NCBI GenBank assembly: GCA_028751095.1
Contig: JAQZCZ010000009.1
Coordinates: 1-35,370, forward strand
Reading direction: 5' to 3'
Length of the DNA: 35,370 bases
Origin: Euryarchaeota archaeon Ods01
GTDB taxonomy: Archaea; Halobacteriota; Halobacteria; Halobacteriales; Halorutilaceae
In this document: in pieces, positions 10,314 to 33,554 of the stretch
Numbering within the stretch: position 1 is the first letter of the stretch
How the letters are laid out: each line of letters starts with the position of its first letter
The notes under the pieces: generated by a model
Told to the model about the DNA's origin: nothing
Databases searched by the model: none
Seen by the model: only the letters and a program-made list of their open reading frames with translations
Position numbers and translations under genes: made by a program

Positions 10314-11558
10314 ATGGAACACCTTGAGGAGACAGCGCCACAGGTTGCCGACGCGATACGCGGAGAGCGGAGTCGTGAGGAGAACGGTCTCGAAATGATA
10401 GCCTCCGAGAACTTCGCCTCACGCGCCGTGATGGAGGCGCAGGGAAGCGTTATGACGAACAAGTACGCCGAAGGCTACCCGGGCGAGCGCTACTACGGCG
10501 GATGCGAGTATATGGACGATGTCGAGGAACTCGCCCGCGAGCGCGCACTCGACATATTCGGCGCGGACCATGTCAACGTCCAGCCGCATTCGGGGACGCA
10601 GGCGAACATGGCGACCTACCTCTCTATACTCGAACCTGGCGACCGAGTACTCGGGATGGACCTGACACACGGCGGGCATCTCTCGCACGGGCATCCCGCC
10701 AACTTCTCGGGCAAGCTCTACGACGTACAGCACTACCTTGTCGACGAGGAGACGGGGCGCATCGACTACGACGGACTCGCGGAACAGGCGCACGACTTCG
10801 AGCCGGACGTTATAGTAACGGGCGCGAGCGCATACCCGCGCGAGATAGACTTCGAACTCCTCGGCGAAATCGCCGACGAGGTCAACGCCTACCACCTCGC
10901 CGATATTGCGCATATCGCGGGTCTGGTCGCCGCCGGCGAACACGTCTCGCCTGTGCCGCACGCCGACTTCGTGACGACGACGACTCACAAGACGCTCCGT
11001 GGACCACGCGGCGGTATGATTCTGTGTGATGACGAACACGCGAGCGATATCGACTCGGCTGTCTTCCCGGGTTCTCAGGGCGGTCCTCTTATGCACGTCG
11101 TCGCGGCGAAGGCGGTCTGTTTCCGTGAGGCTCTGACCGACGACTTCGACAGCTATCAGGCACAGATAGCCGAGAACTCCCGCTCCCTCGCCGACGCGTT
11201 ACAGGAAGACGGCTGGACGCTCGTCAGCGGCGGCACCTACAACCATCTCGTTCTCGTCGACCTACGTGACGAGCCGATTACAGGAAAGGAAGCCGAGGAG
11301 GCTCTCGAAGACGTGGGAATCACCGTCAACAAGAACACGGTACCTGGCGAAGAGGAGCCGCCTACGATAACCTCGGGCGTCCGTATCGGCACGCCCGCTC
11401 TGACGACGCGCGGAATGGAGACCGAACAGCTTGAACGTATCGGCGCGTTAATCTCGCGCGTTCTCTCGAACCCCGACGATGAGACTGTCAAGGAGGAGGT
11501 CGCCGACGAGGTAGAGCGTCTCTGTGAGGAGTTTCCTCTTTACCCTGGCTTAGCGTAG
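10314..11558 (+). CDS. glyA: serine hydroxymethyltransferase
   Basis: 414 residues, the normal archaeal/bacterial length. It converts serine and a (tetrahydro)folate-type C1 carrier to glycine and the methylene carrier, using PLP. Family motifs run from [11 protein letters not shown] (27-37) through [13 protein letters not shown] (51-63) and HSGTQANM (92-99) to [14 protein letters not shown] (221-234), where Lys226 forms the PLP Schiff base. DIAHIAGL (197-204) holds the PLP-ring aspartate and histidine region. The gene is transcribed alone from a TATA box at 10284; the next gene has its own box. Nothing is unusual in length or active site. Confidence 0.97.
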
Positions 11559-27158: not shown

Positions 27159-28262
27159 TCAGTACTCGCGCAGGACGTTGTACCGCTGGTCACGTAGAGC
27201 GGCAAGTTGTCCGGCGTCTTCGATGACGCTCACTATCTCGTCCTCGGTCATACGGAACTCCGCGCCTGCCTCGGCGACGACGTTCTCCTCCATCATCGTG
27301 CTTCCCATGTCGTTCGCGCCGTACGCGAGCGCCATCTGTCCTACCTTCGCGCCCTGCGTCACCCACGACGACTGCATATTCTCGAAGTTGTCGAGGACTA
27401 TACGCGCCGTGGCGAGCGTACGGAGGTAGTCGGTCGCGCTCGGACCCTTCGGACCCGTCTTGCGTGCAAGCGGCGTGTCTCCAGGCTGGAAGTCCCAGCA
27501 GATGAACGCCATGAAGCCGCCCGTCTCGTCCTGTAGGTCGCGGAGACGTAGGAGATGGTCGATACGCTCGTCCCATGTCTCGACCGTGCCGTACATCATG
27601 GTCGCAGTCGTCGAGATTCCGAGGTCGTGGGCGGCGCGCATCACGCCGAGCCATTCGCGCGTTGAGACCTTGTACGGCGAGATTTCGTCGCGGACGCGGT
27701 CGGCGAGAATCTCGCCGCCTCCTCCGGGGATGGAGTCGAGACCGGCGTCACGGAGTCGGCGTAAGACCTCACGGTACGAGAGGTTCTCCTTACGCGCGAG
27801 GTCGTTTATCTCCTCGGGCGAAAAGGCGTGCATATGGATATCGAAACGGTCCTTGATGTCGCGCAACATCTCCTCGAACCATTCGAGGTCGAGGTCGGGA
27901 TGGACGCCGCCCTGCATCAGTATCTGGACGCCGCCCGCATCGACCGTCTCCTGTATCTTCTCGTAGAGTTCGTCGCGTGAAAGGACGTAGCCCTCGTCGC
28001 TCCCCGGCTTACGGTAGAAGGCGCAGAACGAGCAGTAGGTGTCGCAGACGTTGGTGTAGTTGACGTTGCGGTCCTTGATGAAGGTTACAGTCTCCCCCGC
28101 ACGCCGCCGTCTGAGTTCGTCCGCGGCTTCGCCTAGGCGCGTTAACGGCGCGTCCTTGAGCGCGACGCCGTCCTCACGTGTCAGACGTTCGCCCCTCAGC
28201 GCCTTGTCGAGAACGTCCTCGTAGTCGCGCTCGGTCGCCGTCGCGGTCGCTGTCTTGCTCAT
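27159..28262 (-). CDS. mqnC: cyclic dehypoxanthinyl futalosine synthase MqnC
   Basis: 367 residues. The radical-SAM cluster motif is CDTYCSFC (Cys73, Cys77, Cys80). MqnC-type segments follow: QGGVHPDLDLEWFEEMLRDI, HMHAFSPEEIND, SIPGGGGEILADRVRDEISP, TTATMMYGTVETWDERIDHL, ETGGFMAFICWDFQPGDTPL and SSWVTQGAKVGQMALAYGAN. It cyclises dehypoxanthinyl futalosine in the futalosine route to menaquinone. CofG/CofH F0 synthases are the close alternative, but the HPDL and ETGGF-type motifs favour MqnC. Its ATG overlaps the mqnA stop (ATGA), placing it third in the operon after the MqnE-like gene and mqnA. Confidence 0.92.
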   Translation of the reverse strand: MSKTATATATERDYEDVLDKALRGERLTREDGVALKDAPLTRLGEAADELRRRRAGETVTFIKDRNVNYTNVCDTYCSFCAFYRKPGSDEGYVLSRDELYEKIQETVDAGGVQILMQGGVHPDLDLEWFEEMLRDIKDRFDIHMHAFSPEEINDLARKENLSYREVLRRLRDAGLDSIPGGGGEILADRVRDEISPYKVSTREWLGVMRAAHDLGISTTATMMYGTVETWDERIDHLLRLRDLQDETGGFMAFICWDFQPGDTPLARKTGPKGPSATDYLRTLATARIVLDNFENMQSSWVTQGAKVGQMALAYGANDMGSTMMEENVVAEAGAEFRMTEDEIVSVIEDAGQLAALRDQRYNVLREY

Positions 28263-29074
28263 TCTTTCACCGTTATTTCGGGGACTCTCTCTACCTCATC
28301 TATACGTTCCGCCGCTTCATAATACTTGGTAAGTCCTCGACGGTGCGCCGGCGTAAAGTCGTGGTCGAGCATACGCAGATACTCCTTGGCTTCGTTGGTA
28401 TCGAGTCCCATCCTATCCGCCATCTCCGACGCGATAACGTCGAGGCTGTCGTAGCCGACACGTTTCGACTCGTGGAGCGCCTCTGCGACCGCAAGCGCAT
28501 CCTCGCGTGGAACTTCGTCACGGACCGCCCAGACGGCGTAGACCATACGTTCGCCCGTATGGTCGCGCCATTCGCGCCCGAGGTCGTAGACGTACGCGTC
28601 GAGTCCGTCGCGCTCCGCGAGAAGGGCGTTGTCGCCGATAACCAGACCAGCGTCCGCCTCTTCGAGCATCGCGCTTGCGTCGGGTTCGCGGACGACGTAC
28701 TCGGGCGAGATGCCGTATCTTTCGCGTAAGAGAATCTTGAGAAGGACGACGCTCGTCGCGCTCGTTGAGGCGAGTGCAACCGTCCCGCCGTCGAGTTCTT
28801 CGGCAGGGACGGACGAAAACAGGAGTACGCTCCCGACCTCGGCGCGCGACGATACCGAGAGGTCGGGGAGGAGGTAGTAGTCTTCGGCGTTCCGCGCATA
28901 CTCGATGCTCGAAATGGGCGCTATATCGAGTTCGCCGCGCGCGAGCATCCGGTTTAGCGCAGTCGGAAACCCGTCTATGAGACGCAGGTTGGCGTCGACG
29001 GAGCCCGTCTCAATTCCGTGGTAGACGGGGTCGGAGTTGACGAAGTCGATACGTCCGACGCGCGTCTCAGACAC
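28259..29074 (-). CDS. mqnA: chorismate dehydratase MqnA
   Basis: The best start is GTG at 29074, giving 271 residues beginning VSETRVGRIDFVNSDPVYHG; longer forms enter the upstream gene in another frame. MqnA has a periplasmic-binding-protein fold and removes water from chorismate to give 3-[(1-carboxyvinyl)oxy]benzoate, the first step of the futalosine route. Typical elements are RIDFVNSDP near the start, ELDIAPISSIEYARNAEDY and LVIGDNALL. It overlaps the MqnE-like gene by 8 bp and mqnC by 4 bp. The later steps (MqnB or a nucleosidase, MqnD) are not in this window. Confidence 0.92.
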   Translation of the reverse strand: MSETRVGRIDFVNSDPVYHGIETGSVDANLRLIDGFPTALNRMLARGELDIAPISSIEYARNAEDYYLLPDLSVSSRAEVGSVLLFSSVPAEELDGGTVALASTSATSVVLLKILLRERYGISPEYVVREPDASAMLEEADAGLVIGDNALLAERDGLDAYVYDLGREWRDHTGERMVYAVWAVRDEVPREDALAVAEALHESKRVGYDSLDVIASEMADRMGLDTNEAKEYLRMLDHDFTPAHRRGLTKYYEAAERIDEVERVPEITVKE

Positions 29075-29690
29075 CGTAGCCTCCCGCGTCGGCGCGGTTG
29101 ACGGGCGTGAATCCGGCTTCGCGCGCCGCGAGTTCGGGGTCGAACCCCTCCCCGTCCACGAAGCCGAGGTCGTTCGTGCCGTACGCCAGCGCCGTCTGCG
29201 CAAGCTTATCGCCGACCTCGGCGCGTGAGACACGGACGCCGACGACATCTAGACAGAGACGCGCCGCGGCGACAGCCTTCAGGTCCGTGAAAGCCGTCGT
29301 CCGCCCATCGGGGACGAGGCTGACGGCGCGGACCTCAGAGTCGGCGGACAGGTCGTCTACGGCGTCGAGACGCCCGAGGAGATTCCCGTCTCCGTAGACG
29401 ACCGCTACGTCCACCGGCACGTCCACCTCGCGGTAGGCGTCGAATTCGTCGTCTGGTTCGCCGACGAAGACGTTAGCGTCGTCTTCGCTGACTATCCCAC
29501 GGTCTCTCAGCCGGAGTTCAGCGTACCCCTCTGTTTCGTCTGGCGATGACAGCCTTCCGTAGTAGACGCGGTCGCCGGTTAGGCGGCGAGCCTTCTCGCG
29601 CGCCGCGTCTCCGAGAGCGTTTACGTCGTCGGTCTCGAGAAGGTCGCCTGCGTCTTCCGGTTTCGCCGCTGAGGCTTCCGGTTTTCTCAT
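29067..29690 (-). CDS. MqnE/MqnC-like protein lacking the radical-SAM core
   Basis: 207 residues from ATG at 29690, whose TATA box is 27 nt upstream; an in-frame GTG at 29696 is less likely. The N-terminal LLETDDVNALGDAAREKARR then LTGDRVYYG resembles the segment just before the cluster in MqnE. The C-terminal AAARLCLDVVGVRVSRAEVG then DKLAQTALAYGTNDLG parallels MqnC in this window (ARIVLDNF, GAKVGQMALAYGANDMG). Between them only about 100 residues remain, with no CxxxCxxC and hardly any Cys, where the barrel should be. It is first in the operon with mqnA and mqnC. Aminofutalosine synthesis needs the missing cluster, so this protein may be a structural partner or have a changed activity. Confidence 0.75.
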   Translation of the reverse strand: MRKPEASAAKPEDAGDLLETDDVNALGDAAREKARRLTGDRVYYGRLSSPDETEGYAELRLRDRGIVSEDDANVFVGEPDDEFDAYREVDVPVDVAVVYGDGNLLGRLDAVDDLSADSEVRAVSLVPDGRTTAFTDLKAVAAARLCLDVVGVRVSRAEVGDKLAQTALAYGTNDLGFVDGEGFDPELAAREAGFTPVNRADAGGYGV

Positions 29691-29713
29691 CGCCACATAT
29701 ACGTGCGCGACGC

Positions 29714-29720
29714 GTAAATA
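29714..29720 (-). promoter_or_regulatory. TATA box for the menaquinone operon
   Basis: TATTTAC on the minus strand is centred 27 nt before the ATG at 29690. It lies 25 bp beyond the SRP RNA 3' end. Confidence 0.6.
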
Positions 29721-29732
29721 CGCTTCCTTCGA

Positions 29733-29744
29733 CGAATAAAGAAC
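29733..29744 (-). terminator. T-rich terminator after SRP RNA
   Basis: The minus strand reads GTTCTTTATTCG directly after the closing helix of the SRP RNA, consistent with archaeal termination at T-rich tracts. Confidence 0.4.
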
Positions 29745-30048
29745 GCGGACGCCCGGGTCGGCTCCGTCCGGACAGGGAGGCTACCCCGGTCGCCTCCTCC
29801 GCCCCGCGACCCCACGGGCGACAGATGTCGACGGATGGGATGCTCGCTTCCGCGCCTGACCCGTTGCCCGCCGTTAAGACGTGCCGGGCGCCCCTCCGGA
29901 CGCTGACACGCCACCTCTGCCCTCGTGGGACGAGGCTTCGACGTCGGCTTCCGGGACCTCCCCGCCATCGGGAGCCTTCCCGGGATTATCGCCCCCGCTA
30001 AAGACGGTTTGCGGTGGAGGTGACGCCTAACCACCCGGGCTAGTCCGC
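29745..30048 (-). ncRNA. archaeal 7S signal recognition particle RNA
   Basis: A 304-nt RNA read leftwards from 30048. The ends pair perfectly: GCGGAC (30048-30043) with GTCCGC (29750-29745), then GCCCGGGT (30040-30033) with ACCCGGGC (29758-29751), the archaeal helix 1/helix 5 closure. The 5' region GGTTAGGCGTCACC resembles the archaeal Alu domain. The SRP54-binding helix 8 is at 29862-29837: GTCAGGCGCGGAAGCGAGCA, with the GGAA tetraloop and the flanking CAGG/AGCA symmetric loop. A hairpin CCTCGTCCCACGAGG near 29920-29934 fits the region of helix 6. A box A lies 28 nt upstream and a T-rich run (TTCTTTATT) follows the 3' end. RNase P RNA was considered but its core motifs are absent. Confidence 0.93.
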
Positions 30049-30070
30049 TTCTGTTGCTACGTCGGACGGA

Positions 30071-30151: not shown

Positions 30152-30913
30152 ATGAAGACGCCCGTCACGCTCCTGACCGACTTCGACGACTTCTACGTCG
30201 CGGCGATGCGCGGCGTCGTCGTATCGCACGGCGTCCCCGTCTACGATATCTACCACGAGGTGCCGCCGCAGAACGTCCGCGCCGCGGCGTTCATTCTGCG
30301 CAACGTCGCGCCGTACTTCCCCGACGGCACGGTGCATTGCGTCGTCGTTGACCCCGGTGTAGGCACCGAACGCCGGTCGCTCGTCGTTGAGGCGGGCGAA
30401 CAGTACCTCGTCGGACCCGATAACGGCGTTCTCGTACCGGCGGCGCGCGAACTCGACGACGACCCAACGTTCTACGACGCGCCGTACGACGACCCCGAGT
30501 CGCACACCTTCCACGGACGCGACGTGTTCGCTCCGCAGGCGGCGCGTGTGGCGACGGAGGGTATCCGGTCGGTTGCCGGCGCACCCGTCGAACCCATCGA
30601 ACTCGACGTAGGCGCGCCCGCGTTCGACGGCGAGGCGCGCGCCGAGGTTGTCTACGTCGACCGTTTCGGAAACGCCGTCACGAACCTTGACGGCGACGAG
30701 GTCGTCCGGCGCGTCGGTTACGGCGGCGAGGTCGTGGTTGACGGACGCATCCTGCCTTTCGAACGGACGTACGCGGCGGTTGACCGCGGCGAAACCCTCG
30801 CTCTCGTCGGAAGCCACGGGGGGTTCGAGATTGCGGCGCGGGAGGCGAGCGGCGCGGACGCCCTCGGCGTCTCGGCGGGCGACGAGATTACCGTGGAGAC
30901 GAAAGAGGGATAA
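30152..30913 (+). CDS. SAM hydrolase (SAM hydroxide adenosyltransferase, DUF62)
   Basis: 253 residues. Motifs of the SAM_HAT family are all present: LLTDFDDFYVAAMRG (8-22), VVVDPGVGTERRSLVVE (about 64-80), YLVGPDNGVLVPA (about 85-97), TFHGRDVFAP, VYVDRFGNAVTNLDG, and the C-terminal GSHGGFEIA. These enzymes use water or hydroxide to split S-adenosylmethionine into adenosine and methionine; related fluorinases and chlorinases use halides. The hydroxide type is by far the commonest in archaea. The gene starts a plus-strand run with prs 24 bp downstream. A weak AAATAGAC box lies about 31 nt before the ATG. Confidence 0.92.
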   Translation: MKTPVTLLTDFDDFYVAAMRGVVVSHGVPVYDIYHEVPPQNVRAAAFILRNVAPYFPDGTVHCVVVDPGVGTERRSLVVEAGEQYLVGPDNGVLVPAARELDDDPTFYDAPYDDPESHTFHGRDVFAPQAARVATEGIRSVAGAPVEPIELDVGAPAFDGEARAEVVYVDRFGNAVTNLDGDEVVRRVGYGGEVVVDGRILPFERTYAAVDRGETLALVGSHGGFEIAAREASGADALGVSAGDEITVETKEG

Positions 30914-30936: not shown

Positions 30937-31767
30937 ATGATAGTAGCCGGTTCGGAGTCGCAGGTTCTTGCGGCACGCGTCGCACGCGAAACGGGGCGCG
31001 AACTCGCACGCGTCGAGTACGAACGTTTCCCTGACGGCGAGCGCCTCGTCCGCGTCCCAGGCGTCGAAGGCGAGGAGGTCGCTGTCGTCGCAAGCACGCC
31101 GACAGATGCCTCGTACGTCGAACTACTCCAGATACTCGACGCCTGCGCCGACGCGTCACGTATCGACCTCTTCGTTCCCTACATGGGTTATTCGCGGCAG
31201 GACAAGCAGTTCGGCGATGGTGAAGCAGTGTCGGCGCGCGCCCTCGCATCGGCGGTGCCGCCGGTCGAGTCGGTGACGACGGTCAACCTCCACGAAGACG
31301 ACGTTCTCGACTGGTTCGACGCCGAGACGGCGGACCTCGATGCCGCACCACTCCTTGCTGACTCTCTGGATGTTGCCTCGCCACTCGTCGTAGCCCCTGA
31401 CGAAAGCGCCTTTCCGCTCGCCGAAACCGTCGCGGACCGTCTCGGCGGCGACGCCGACTACCTCGTCAAGGAACGCGTTTCGGGCGACGAGGTACGTATC
31501 GAAACGCGCGAACTCGGTGCAGAAAGCCGCGATGTCGTCCTCGTTGACGATATGGTGGCGACCGGAGGGACGATGAGCGAGGCGATAGAGGTTCTTGGAG
31601 GAAACGGCGCGCGTTCCGTGCGCGTTGCCTGCGTCCATCCCGTCCTCGCGCGTAACGCCGTCCTCCGTCTCTACTCGGCGGGCGTCGAACGCGTCGTTGC
31701 GACCGACACGCTCGAAACAGCGGTCAGTGACGCGTCGGTTGCGTCCCTAATCGCGCGTCACCTCTGA
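30937..31767 (+). CDS. prs: ribose-phosphate pyrophosphokinase
   Basis: 276 residues, the short archaeal form. It makes PRPP from ribose 5-phosphate and ATP, needed for nucleotides, His and Trp. Visible motifs are YERFPDGERLVRVPG (28-42), VPYMGYSRQDKQF (about 80-92), TVNLHEDDVLDWFD (the NLH metal region) and the PRPP-binding loop VVLVDDMVATGGTMSEA (about 202-218). The flexible-loop region LVKERVSGDEVRIETR carries the catalytic Lys-Arg. It lies 23 bp after the SAM hydrolase, whose product adenosine can feed nucleotide salvage, so joint transcription makes sense but is not proven. Confidence 0.95.
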   Translation: MIVAGSESQVLAARVARETGRELARVEYERFPDGERLVRVPGVEGEEVAVVASTPTDASYVELLQILDACADASRIDLFVPYMGYSRQDKQFGDGEAVSARALASAVPPVESVTTVNLHEDDVLDWFDAETADLDAAPLLADSLDVASPLVVAPDESAFPLAETVADRLGGDADYLVKERVSGDEVRIETRELGAESRDVVLVDDMVATGGTMSEAIEVLGGNGARSVRVACVHPVLARNAVLRLYSAGVERVVATDTLETAVSDASVASLIARHL

Positions 31768-32948: not shown

Positions 32949-33554
32949 GTGGGCGTACCGCTCGCAGAGGGTGGCGGACGCTGGGTCGTCGTCGCTCTCG
33001 CGGTACCGGCTCTTGCACTCCTCCACTCGCCCGTAGCCGCCGCCGTAGCTCTCGCGGTGCCGGCTCTCGTCGCCGCCTTCTTCCGTGACCCCGACCGCGA
33101 ACCCGACGGCGATGGAGTCGTTTCGCCCGCCGACGGACGTGTCTCCGTACTGCGCGAGGAGGACGGGCGTCTACGCGTCGGCGTCTTCATGAATCTCCAC
33201 AACGTCCACGTCAACCGCGCGCCCGTAACCGGAGAGGTCGGCGGAGTCGTACACCACGGCGGCGCGCACCGTCCTGCCTTCTCAAAGGACAGCGACAGAA
33301 ACGAACGTGTCGAGACGACGGTGGGGGAGTTCGAGGTCGTCCAGATAGCGGGTGCGTTCGCGCGGCGTATAACGACATATGTCGATGAGGGCGACAAGGT
33401 CGAGCGCGGCGACCGTATCGGGCTAATCGCATTCGGTTCGCGCGCCGACGTTATCTTCCCCGAGACGTACACACGCGCCGACCTCCGAGTCGAAAAGGGC
33501 GACCGTGTCCGGGCGGGCGAGACCGTTCTCGCTCCGTGCAAGACCGAACAGTAA
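32949..33554 (+). CDS. pssD: archaetidylserine/phosphatidylserine decarboxylase
   Basis: 201 residues from GTG at 32949, two bases after the preceding stop. Short-form PSD-like enzymes cleave themselves to form a pyruvoyl group. Here the cleavage site is IAFGSRADVIFP with Gly163-Ser164. The Asp-His partners of self-cleavage are in VSPADGRV (Asp62) and MNLHNVHVNR (His84, His87), followed by APVTGEVGGVVHHGG. One or two hydrophobic segments at 12-45 anchor it to the membrane. It converts archaetidylserine to archaetidylethanolamine. In H. volcanii, PssA and PssD are needed for ArtA-dependent protein processing, which fits artA following 32 bp downstream. Confidence 0.92.
   Translation: MGVPLAEGGGRWVVVALAVPALALLHSPVAAAVALAVPALVAAFFRDPDREPDGDGVVSPADGRVSVLREEDGRLRVGVFMNLHNVHVNRAPVTGEVGGVVHHGGAHRPAFSKDSDRNERVETTVGEFEVVQIAGAFARRITTYVDEGDKVERGDRIGLIAFGSRADVIFPETYTRADLRVEKGDRVRAGETVLAPCKTEQ

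Follow-up and report, generated by a model that had tools for sequence, protein, structure and literature searches.

Genomic context of tr

What can a protein related to the radical-SAM enzyme MqnE still contribute to menaquinone (vitamin K2) synthesis once its radical-SAM core is gone? The question is raised by tr, a short gene in a 35,370-nucleotide stretch of DNA (the window) from the archaeon Ods01. The closest named relative, Halorutilus salinus F3-133 (class Halobacteria, order Halorutilales, family Halorutilaceae), belongs to the window's own genus. A preliminary description of the locus had placed tr in an overlapping operon with mqnA and mqnC, and this arrangement is real (Table 1). 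In the window, the tr/mqnA overlap measures 8 nt (GTGTCTGA) and the mqnA/mqnC overlap 4 nt; the former is kept in relatives, at 8 nt in H. salinus and about 7 nt in a third genome, MAG Ods02. The tr frame opens with an ATG at 29690, and an alternative GTG lies at 29696.

Part of the 455 bp upstream of tr is occupied by an archaeal SRP RNA gene, and the same gene lies directly upstream of the tr operon in H. salinus and MAG Ods02, a feature not remarked in the preliminary description. The TATA-like box TATTTA, which precedes tr in the window, recurs at an identical 24-nt spacing in H. salinus, and in MAG Ods02 CTTTTA occurs 25 nt before the ATG. The promoter earlier ascribed to tr is plausible as a prediction, because such a box, conserved in three genomes, fits a leaderless archaeal promoter; its spacing suggests that the tr transcript is leaderless. 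Beyond the SRP RNA lie three genes whose identities in Table 1 are our assumption. In a relative, locus L014 holds at 10545-11387, on the plus strand, what we take to be a phosphatidylserine decarboxylase-like gene, followed by a presumed exosortase/archaeosortase-like membrane protein.

Table 1. Features of the tr locus, in window coordinates.
Feature	Position	Strand	Description
mqnC	27159..28262	-	cyclic dehypoxanthinyl futalosine synthase; TIGR03699, 495.6 bits, over cut-off
mqnA	28259..29074	-	chorismate dehydratase; PF02621, 250.7 bits; GTG start inside the end of tr
tr gene	29067..29690	-	207 aa; putative half-barrel paralogue of MqnE; first in tr-mqnA-mqnC
tr residues 190-199	29094..29123	-	C-terminal tail matching MqnE 345-354 (AGxxPVxR)
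tr residues 130-175	29166..29303	-	CofH_C-like segment with GTNDLG; homologous to MqnE 268-314
tr residues 46-128	29307..29555	-	shortened middle in place of MqnE ~58-268; cluster loop and strands 2-4 missing
tr residues 12-44	29559..29657	-	N-terminal helices and strand 1; homologous to MqnE 25-57 (shuffle test, blastp)
TATA-like box TATTTA	29715..29720	-	24 nt before the tr ATG, between SRP RNA and ATG
archaeal SRP (7S) RNA gene	29743..30050	-	Rfam RF01857, 174.5 bits; upstream of the operon, same strand
SAM hydroxide adenosyltransferase-like (DUF62) gene	30152..30913	+	presumed identity; divergent from SRP RNA
PRPP synthetase-like gene	30937..31767		presumed identity; follows the DUF62 gene
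phosphatidylserine decarboxylase-like gene	32949..33554	+	presumed identity

Homology of tr to MqnE

Both ends of tr had been described as matching MqnE/MqnC-type enzymes, and three segments indeed align with MqnE above the maxima obtained by shuffling. Residues 12-44 score 35.0 against a shuffle maximum of 21.1, residues 130-175 score 76.9 against 22.9, and the C-terminal tail scores 20.8 against 19.1. The middle of the protein, residues 46-128, does not on its own rise above chance in this test against MqnE and is too diverged for homology to be proved from sequence. Colinear alignment with the MqnE proteins of the same genomes gives a matching picture, in which both ends align and a large deletion lies between them. 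Here and below, MqnE residues are numbered as in the full-length MqnE of the window genome, and invariant residues are those of a family sample.

Profile comparisons rank MqnE first throughout. Against the NCBIfam MqnE model TIGR03700, tr gave 34.4 bits (E 1.1e-8), best over residues 129-175, short of the equivalog cut-off of 434.55; the MqnC and CofH models matched the same C-terminal stretch more weakly, and CofH_C (PF19288) reached 16.3 bits (E 0.009), below its gathering threshold of 27 bits. The HMM libraries returned no family match for tr outside CofH/MqnE/MqnC, and all matches were sub-threshold. By profile-profile alignment with hhalign, MqnE (97.7%, E 1.3e-12) led MqnC (88.8%, 2.5e-6) and CofH (51.8%). 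In a tree built on 98 alignable columns, the tr sequences form a single clade (100/99) whose sister is the MqnE of Halorutilales (85/83); tr is a long branch, support for the sister grouping is moderate, and its joining of this clade is likely, not proven. Common descent with MqnE, as first proposed, is supported by the shuffle test, by the profile comparisons including hhalign and, moderately, by the tree. We read tr, with moderate confidence, as a single-origin duplicate of a Halorutilales MqnE. An origin from MqnC or CofH, which belong to the same superfamily (TIGR03699, TIGR03551), is less supported by profile scores, blastp, hhalign and tree; these enzymes match the C-terminal segment less well, carry the motifs that tr is missing and score below MqnE in every test.

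Residues lost and retained

By profile, tree and fold, the last taken from a predicted model, MqnE (TIGR03700; 6xi9/6xig) is the nearest known protein to tr. The two share the N-terminal helices, strand 1, a CofH_C-type segment with GxNDxG and a C-terminal tail. They differ in length (207 residues against about 373) and in the catalytic half. The CxxxCxxC motif of the 4Fe-4S cluster is absent from the tr translation and from all three orthologues, and with it are gone the GGxxP segment, strands 2-4 including PGGGAE, and the H and E of YGHxE (strand numbers follow the usual radical-SAM topology). N258, Y294 and E321 are likewise lost, so that each of these MqnE-invariant SAM- and substrate-binding positions is either deleted or substituted. 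The loss of the radical-SAM core noted in the preliminary description takes in both the cluster and the other SAM-binding motifs. Invariants that tr does keep include G299, K301, Q304, G310, D313 and R354, and the three orthologues share invariant residues of their own, YGD99-101, GRTTA129-133, R153 and R156. Homologous to an enzyme yet devoid of its catalytic motif, tr has the hallmark of a pseudoenzyme; without the cluster, aminofutalosine synthase activity is not expected of it.

Predicted structure

AlphaFold2 (AF2) given the three tr sequences alone produced a model with a pLDDT of 47.7, for which Foldseek found no significant match, and this model was dropped. With 17 MqnE/MqnC rows added to the alignment, the pLDDT rose to 84.1 and the pTM to 0.82. 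In the PDB, the second model matched the MqnE structures 6xig and 6xi9 best, with a query TM of 0.62-0.74 and E values from 6e-7 to 2e-6; other radical-SAM barrels came next. Two N-terminal helices and strand 1 lead in this model into strand-helix units corresponding to strands 5-8, two of the (beta-alpha) units falling within residues 46-128. The contiguous (beta-alpha)4 unit so predicted leans on the MqnE rows, given the poor three-row run (pLDDT 48, against 84 with them). We take the model as compatible with an MqnE half-barrel, not as proof of one, since its good pLDDT depends on those rows. An unrelated fold, which would have told against the initial reading, is not supported: with this same dependence on MqnE rows, AF2 model and Foldseek search both point to MqnE.

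Orthologues and selection

Syntenic orthologues of tr occur in H. salinus (64-65% identity) and in MAG Ods02, a member of a sister genus in the same family (41-46%). With the window's own, this makes three tr-bearing genomes out of the 59 searched. An alignment-based scan of 84,980 species genomes recovered two tr loci only, those of H. salinus and MAG Ods02, and a single-sequence scan of genome contigs with tr gave no match. A search of the phylum gave matches in many genomes; among the matches listed, one 111-aa open frame (L050) apart, there was no short homologue, and C-terminal segments there lay in long (>330 aa) frames of the CofH/MqnE/MqnC type. As far as these genomes show, tr appears restricted to Halorutilaceae, with three sequences known.

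The draft genome that contains the window is fragmented (133 contigs), a setting in which a normal mqnE might be shortened by an assembly or sequencing deletion. An equally short gene, with matching borders and synteny, is nevertheless found in the H. salinus isolate and in an independently assembled MAG, and no relative has a full-length copy at the tr locus. These observations refute an artefact, whose probability we regard as negligible.

Between the window and H. salinus, tr shows a dN of 0.26 and a dS of 1.06, a ratio of 0.25 (bootstrap 0.16-0.36) that indicates purifying selection; the point estimates for individual segments run from 0.15 to 0.32, every one below 1. The ratio and the synteny rule out pseudogene decay, and the conserved promoter and gene overlaps agree with the earlier judgement that tr is no pseudogene. 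Constraint is moderate, because tr evolves faster than mqnA, mqnC and mqnE: in the same genome pair it retains 64% identity against their 80-92%, and their dN/dS values are about 0.22, 0.08 and 0.10, respectively. As the fastest-evolving gene compared, tr could be a paralogue in decay that survives chiefly as a leader ORF; the stop/start overlap would couple its translation to mqnA and so preserve the frame, while the protein itself would do little. The conservation of that overlap in three genomes and the leaderless-type promoter fit such a role. However, a dN/dS with an upper bound of 0.36 and motifs conserved over about 200 codons argue for selection on the protein, and the gene has been kept across two genera. 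The genome of H. salinus is, moreover, streamlined (PMC10134839), which makes the keeping of a useless tr less likely. On balance, we consider a mere leader function quite improbable.

The futalosine pathway in tr-bearing genomes

A complete MqnE is encoded elsewhere in the window genome, on contig C112. Its score of 455 bits exceeds the equivalog cut-off, and every residue that is invariant in the family sample is present; full MqnE is also present in H. salinus and MAG Ods02. MqnA and MqnC lie on contig C62 of the window genome, and a second PF02621 protein, on contig C43, is MqnD. Next to it lies the futalosine hydrolase MqnB (TIGR03664, 131.9 bits, over cut-off), and the two genes make up a cluster of their own (L099 4842-6286, minus strand). 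The genome also encodes CofH (contig C101) and several amidohydrolases, which are deaminase candidates. The preliminary description had entertained the idea that tr replaces MqnE by a new route, and tr does sit where mqnE could sit in an mqn operon. The presence of full-length MqnE in every tr-bearing genome, with MqnB and MqnD also encoded in the window genome, refutes this idea, and tr itself lacks the cluster and SAM motifs. That tr replaces MqnE, or restores an incomplete one, is thus highly improbable.

The same inventory bears on whether tr has gained a new catalytic or ligand-specific function, in which the half-barrel's own strand-end site (YGD99-101, GRTTA129-133, R153 and R156) would carry out or assist a pathway step. 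In all three orthologues D101 and the five-residue GRTTA run take the place of MqnE strand-end residues, and every segment of tr is under purifying selection. Yet invariance across three sequences is weak, tr has no family match outside CofH/MqnE, and with MqnA, B, C, D and E and candidate deaminases present, no gap in the pathway is visible for it to fill. We judge this explanation unlikely.

Menaquinone routes divide the genomes searched. No menD above cut-off was found in the three tr-bearing genomes, and menD is present in 53 of the 59; strong PF02621 proteins were confined, among 98 genomes, to the same three, and every genome in which tr was found has the futalosine pathway. Co-conservation across haloarchaea, proposed at the outset as a check, does not hold at that breadth, tr having turned up, among the genomes searched, only in Halorutilaceae. 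A fourth genome of the family (G001, a MAG of the window's genus, 64% complete) has menD and yielded no PF02621 protein. On its contig C397 (L096 1-3149) the SRP RNA and the neighbouring SAM-hydrolase-like gene are both present, with a YbgC/MenI-like thioesterase between them and an unrelated ORF flanking the SRP RNA on its other side; beside the SRP RNA, this contig holds no tr, mqnA or mqnC. Since G001 has menD and lacks all three, tr and the futalosine genes are present or missing together in this sample of four. Comparison of G001 with its tr-bearing congeners raises the possibility of a within-genus switch of menaquinone route. The paper describing H. salinus does not mention quinones.

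A proposed role for tr

We consider it fairly probable that tr is a conserved, pathway-dedicated pseudoenzyme, derived from MqnE and acting by binding MqnE, MqnC or an intermediate. In this proposal, the duplication of mqnE would date back to the ancestor of Halorutilaceae, or would have happened in the organism that donated their futalosine pathway, and one copy would have come to adjoin mqnA-mqnC. That copy would then have lost the 4Fe-4S/SAM half of the barrel (the cluster loop and strands 2-4) and kept the N-terminal helices, strand 1 and strands 5-8. By binding MqnE or MqnC, the product may stabilise an oxygen-sensitive enzyme or regulate flux through a heteromer; alternatively, it may hold an intermediate passed between MqnA, MqnE and MqnC. 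Binding is the most likely mode of action because the outer helices and C-terminal element of MqnE are kept and the catalytic face is gone, and by ancestry MqnE is a more natural predicted partner than MqnC. Loss of the radical-making half, continuing selection and the presence of the normal enzymes suggest that tr probably works as a non-catalytic helper of those enzymes.

Precedents exist, none of them a relative of tr. Inactive paralogues that aid active enzymes have been reviewed as pseudoenzymes (PMC10211241), and plant PDX1.2 is a non-catalytic paralogue that aids its active paralogues in vitamin B6 synthesis (PMC5897740). Like these, tr is a presumably inactive copy of a pathway enzyme that selection has maintained although active paralogues are present. 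Unlike PDX1.2, whose help is documented, tr is a predicted helper, and it has lost about 45% of its length, not just catalytic residues. In its predicted fold, tr keeps one contiguous barrel half, as do the (beta-alpha)4 half-barrels reviewed as folding units of TIM-barrel proteins (PMC8250049); those cited are engineered or hypothetical ancestors, whereas tr would be a natural secondary reduction that retains strand 1 and the cap helices. In the literature that we searched, we came across no account of a truncated MqnE, nor of a pseudoenzyme formed by a radical-SAM half-barrel. A bolder claim, which we put forward only tentatively, is that tr is a natural, stand-alone half-barrel from a radical-SAM enzyme that has taken on a new task in the futalosine pathway. 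It would then be an obligate partner, completing or protecting MqnE or MqnC, or would work through a site of its own formed by D101, GRTTA and R156.

Should our reading of tr as a helper pseudoenzyme hold, the protein would represent a natural reduction of a radical-SAM enzyme, its catalytic half deleted and the remainder under selection, and it would offer a small test case of whether half-barrels are stable units in nature. As a futalosine-specific helper, it would also be a test case for the ways in which haloarchaea support radical-SAM enzymes that are sensitive to oxygen. The Halorutilaceae stand out, too, as haloarchaea that use the futalosine pathway; almost every other haloarchaeal genome searched has the classical menD.
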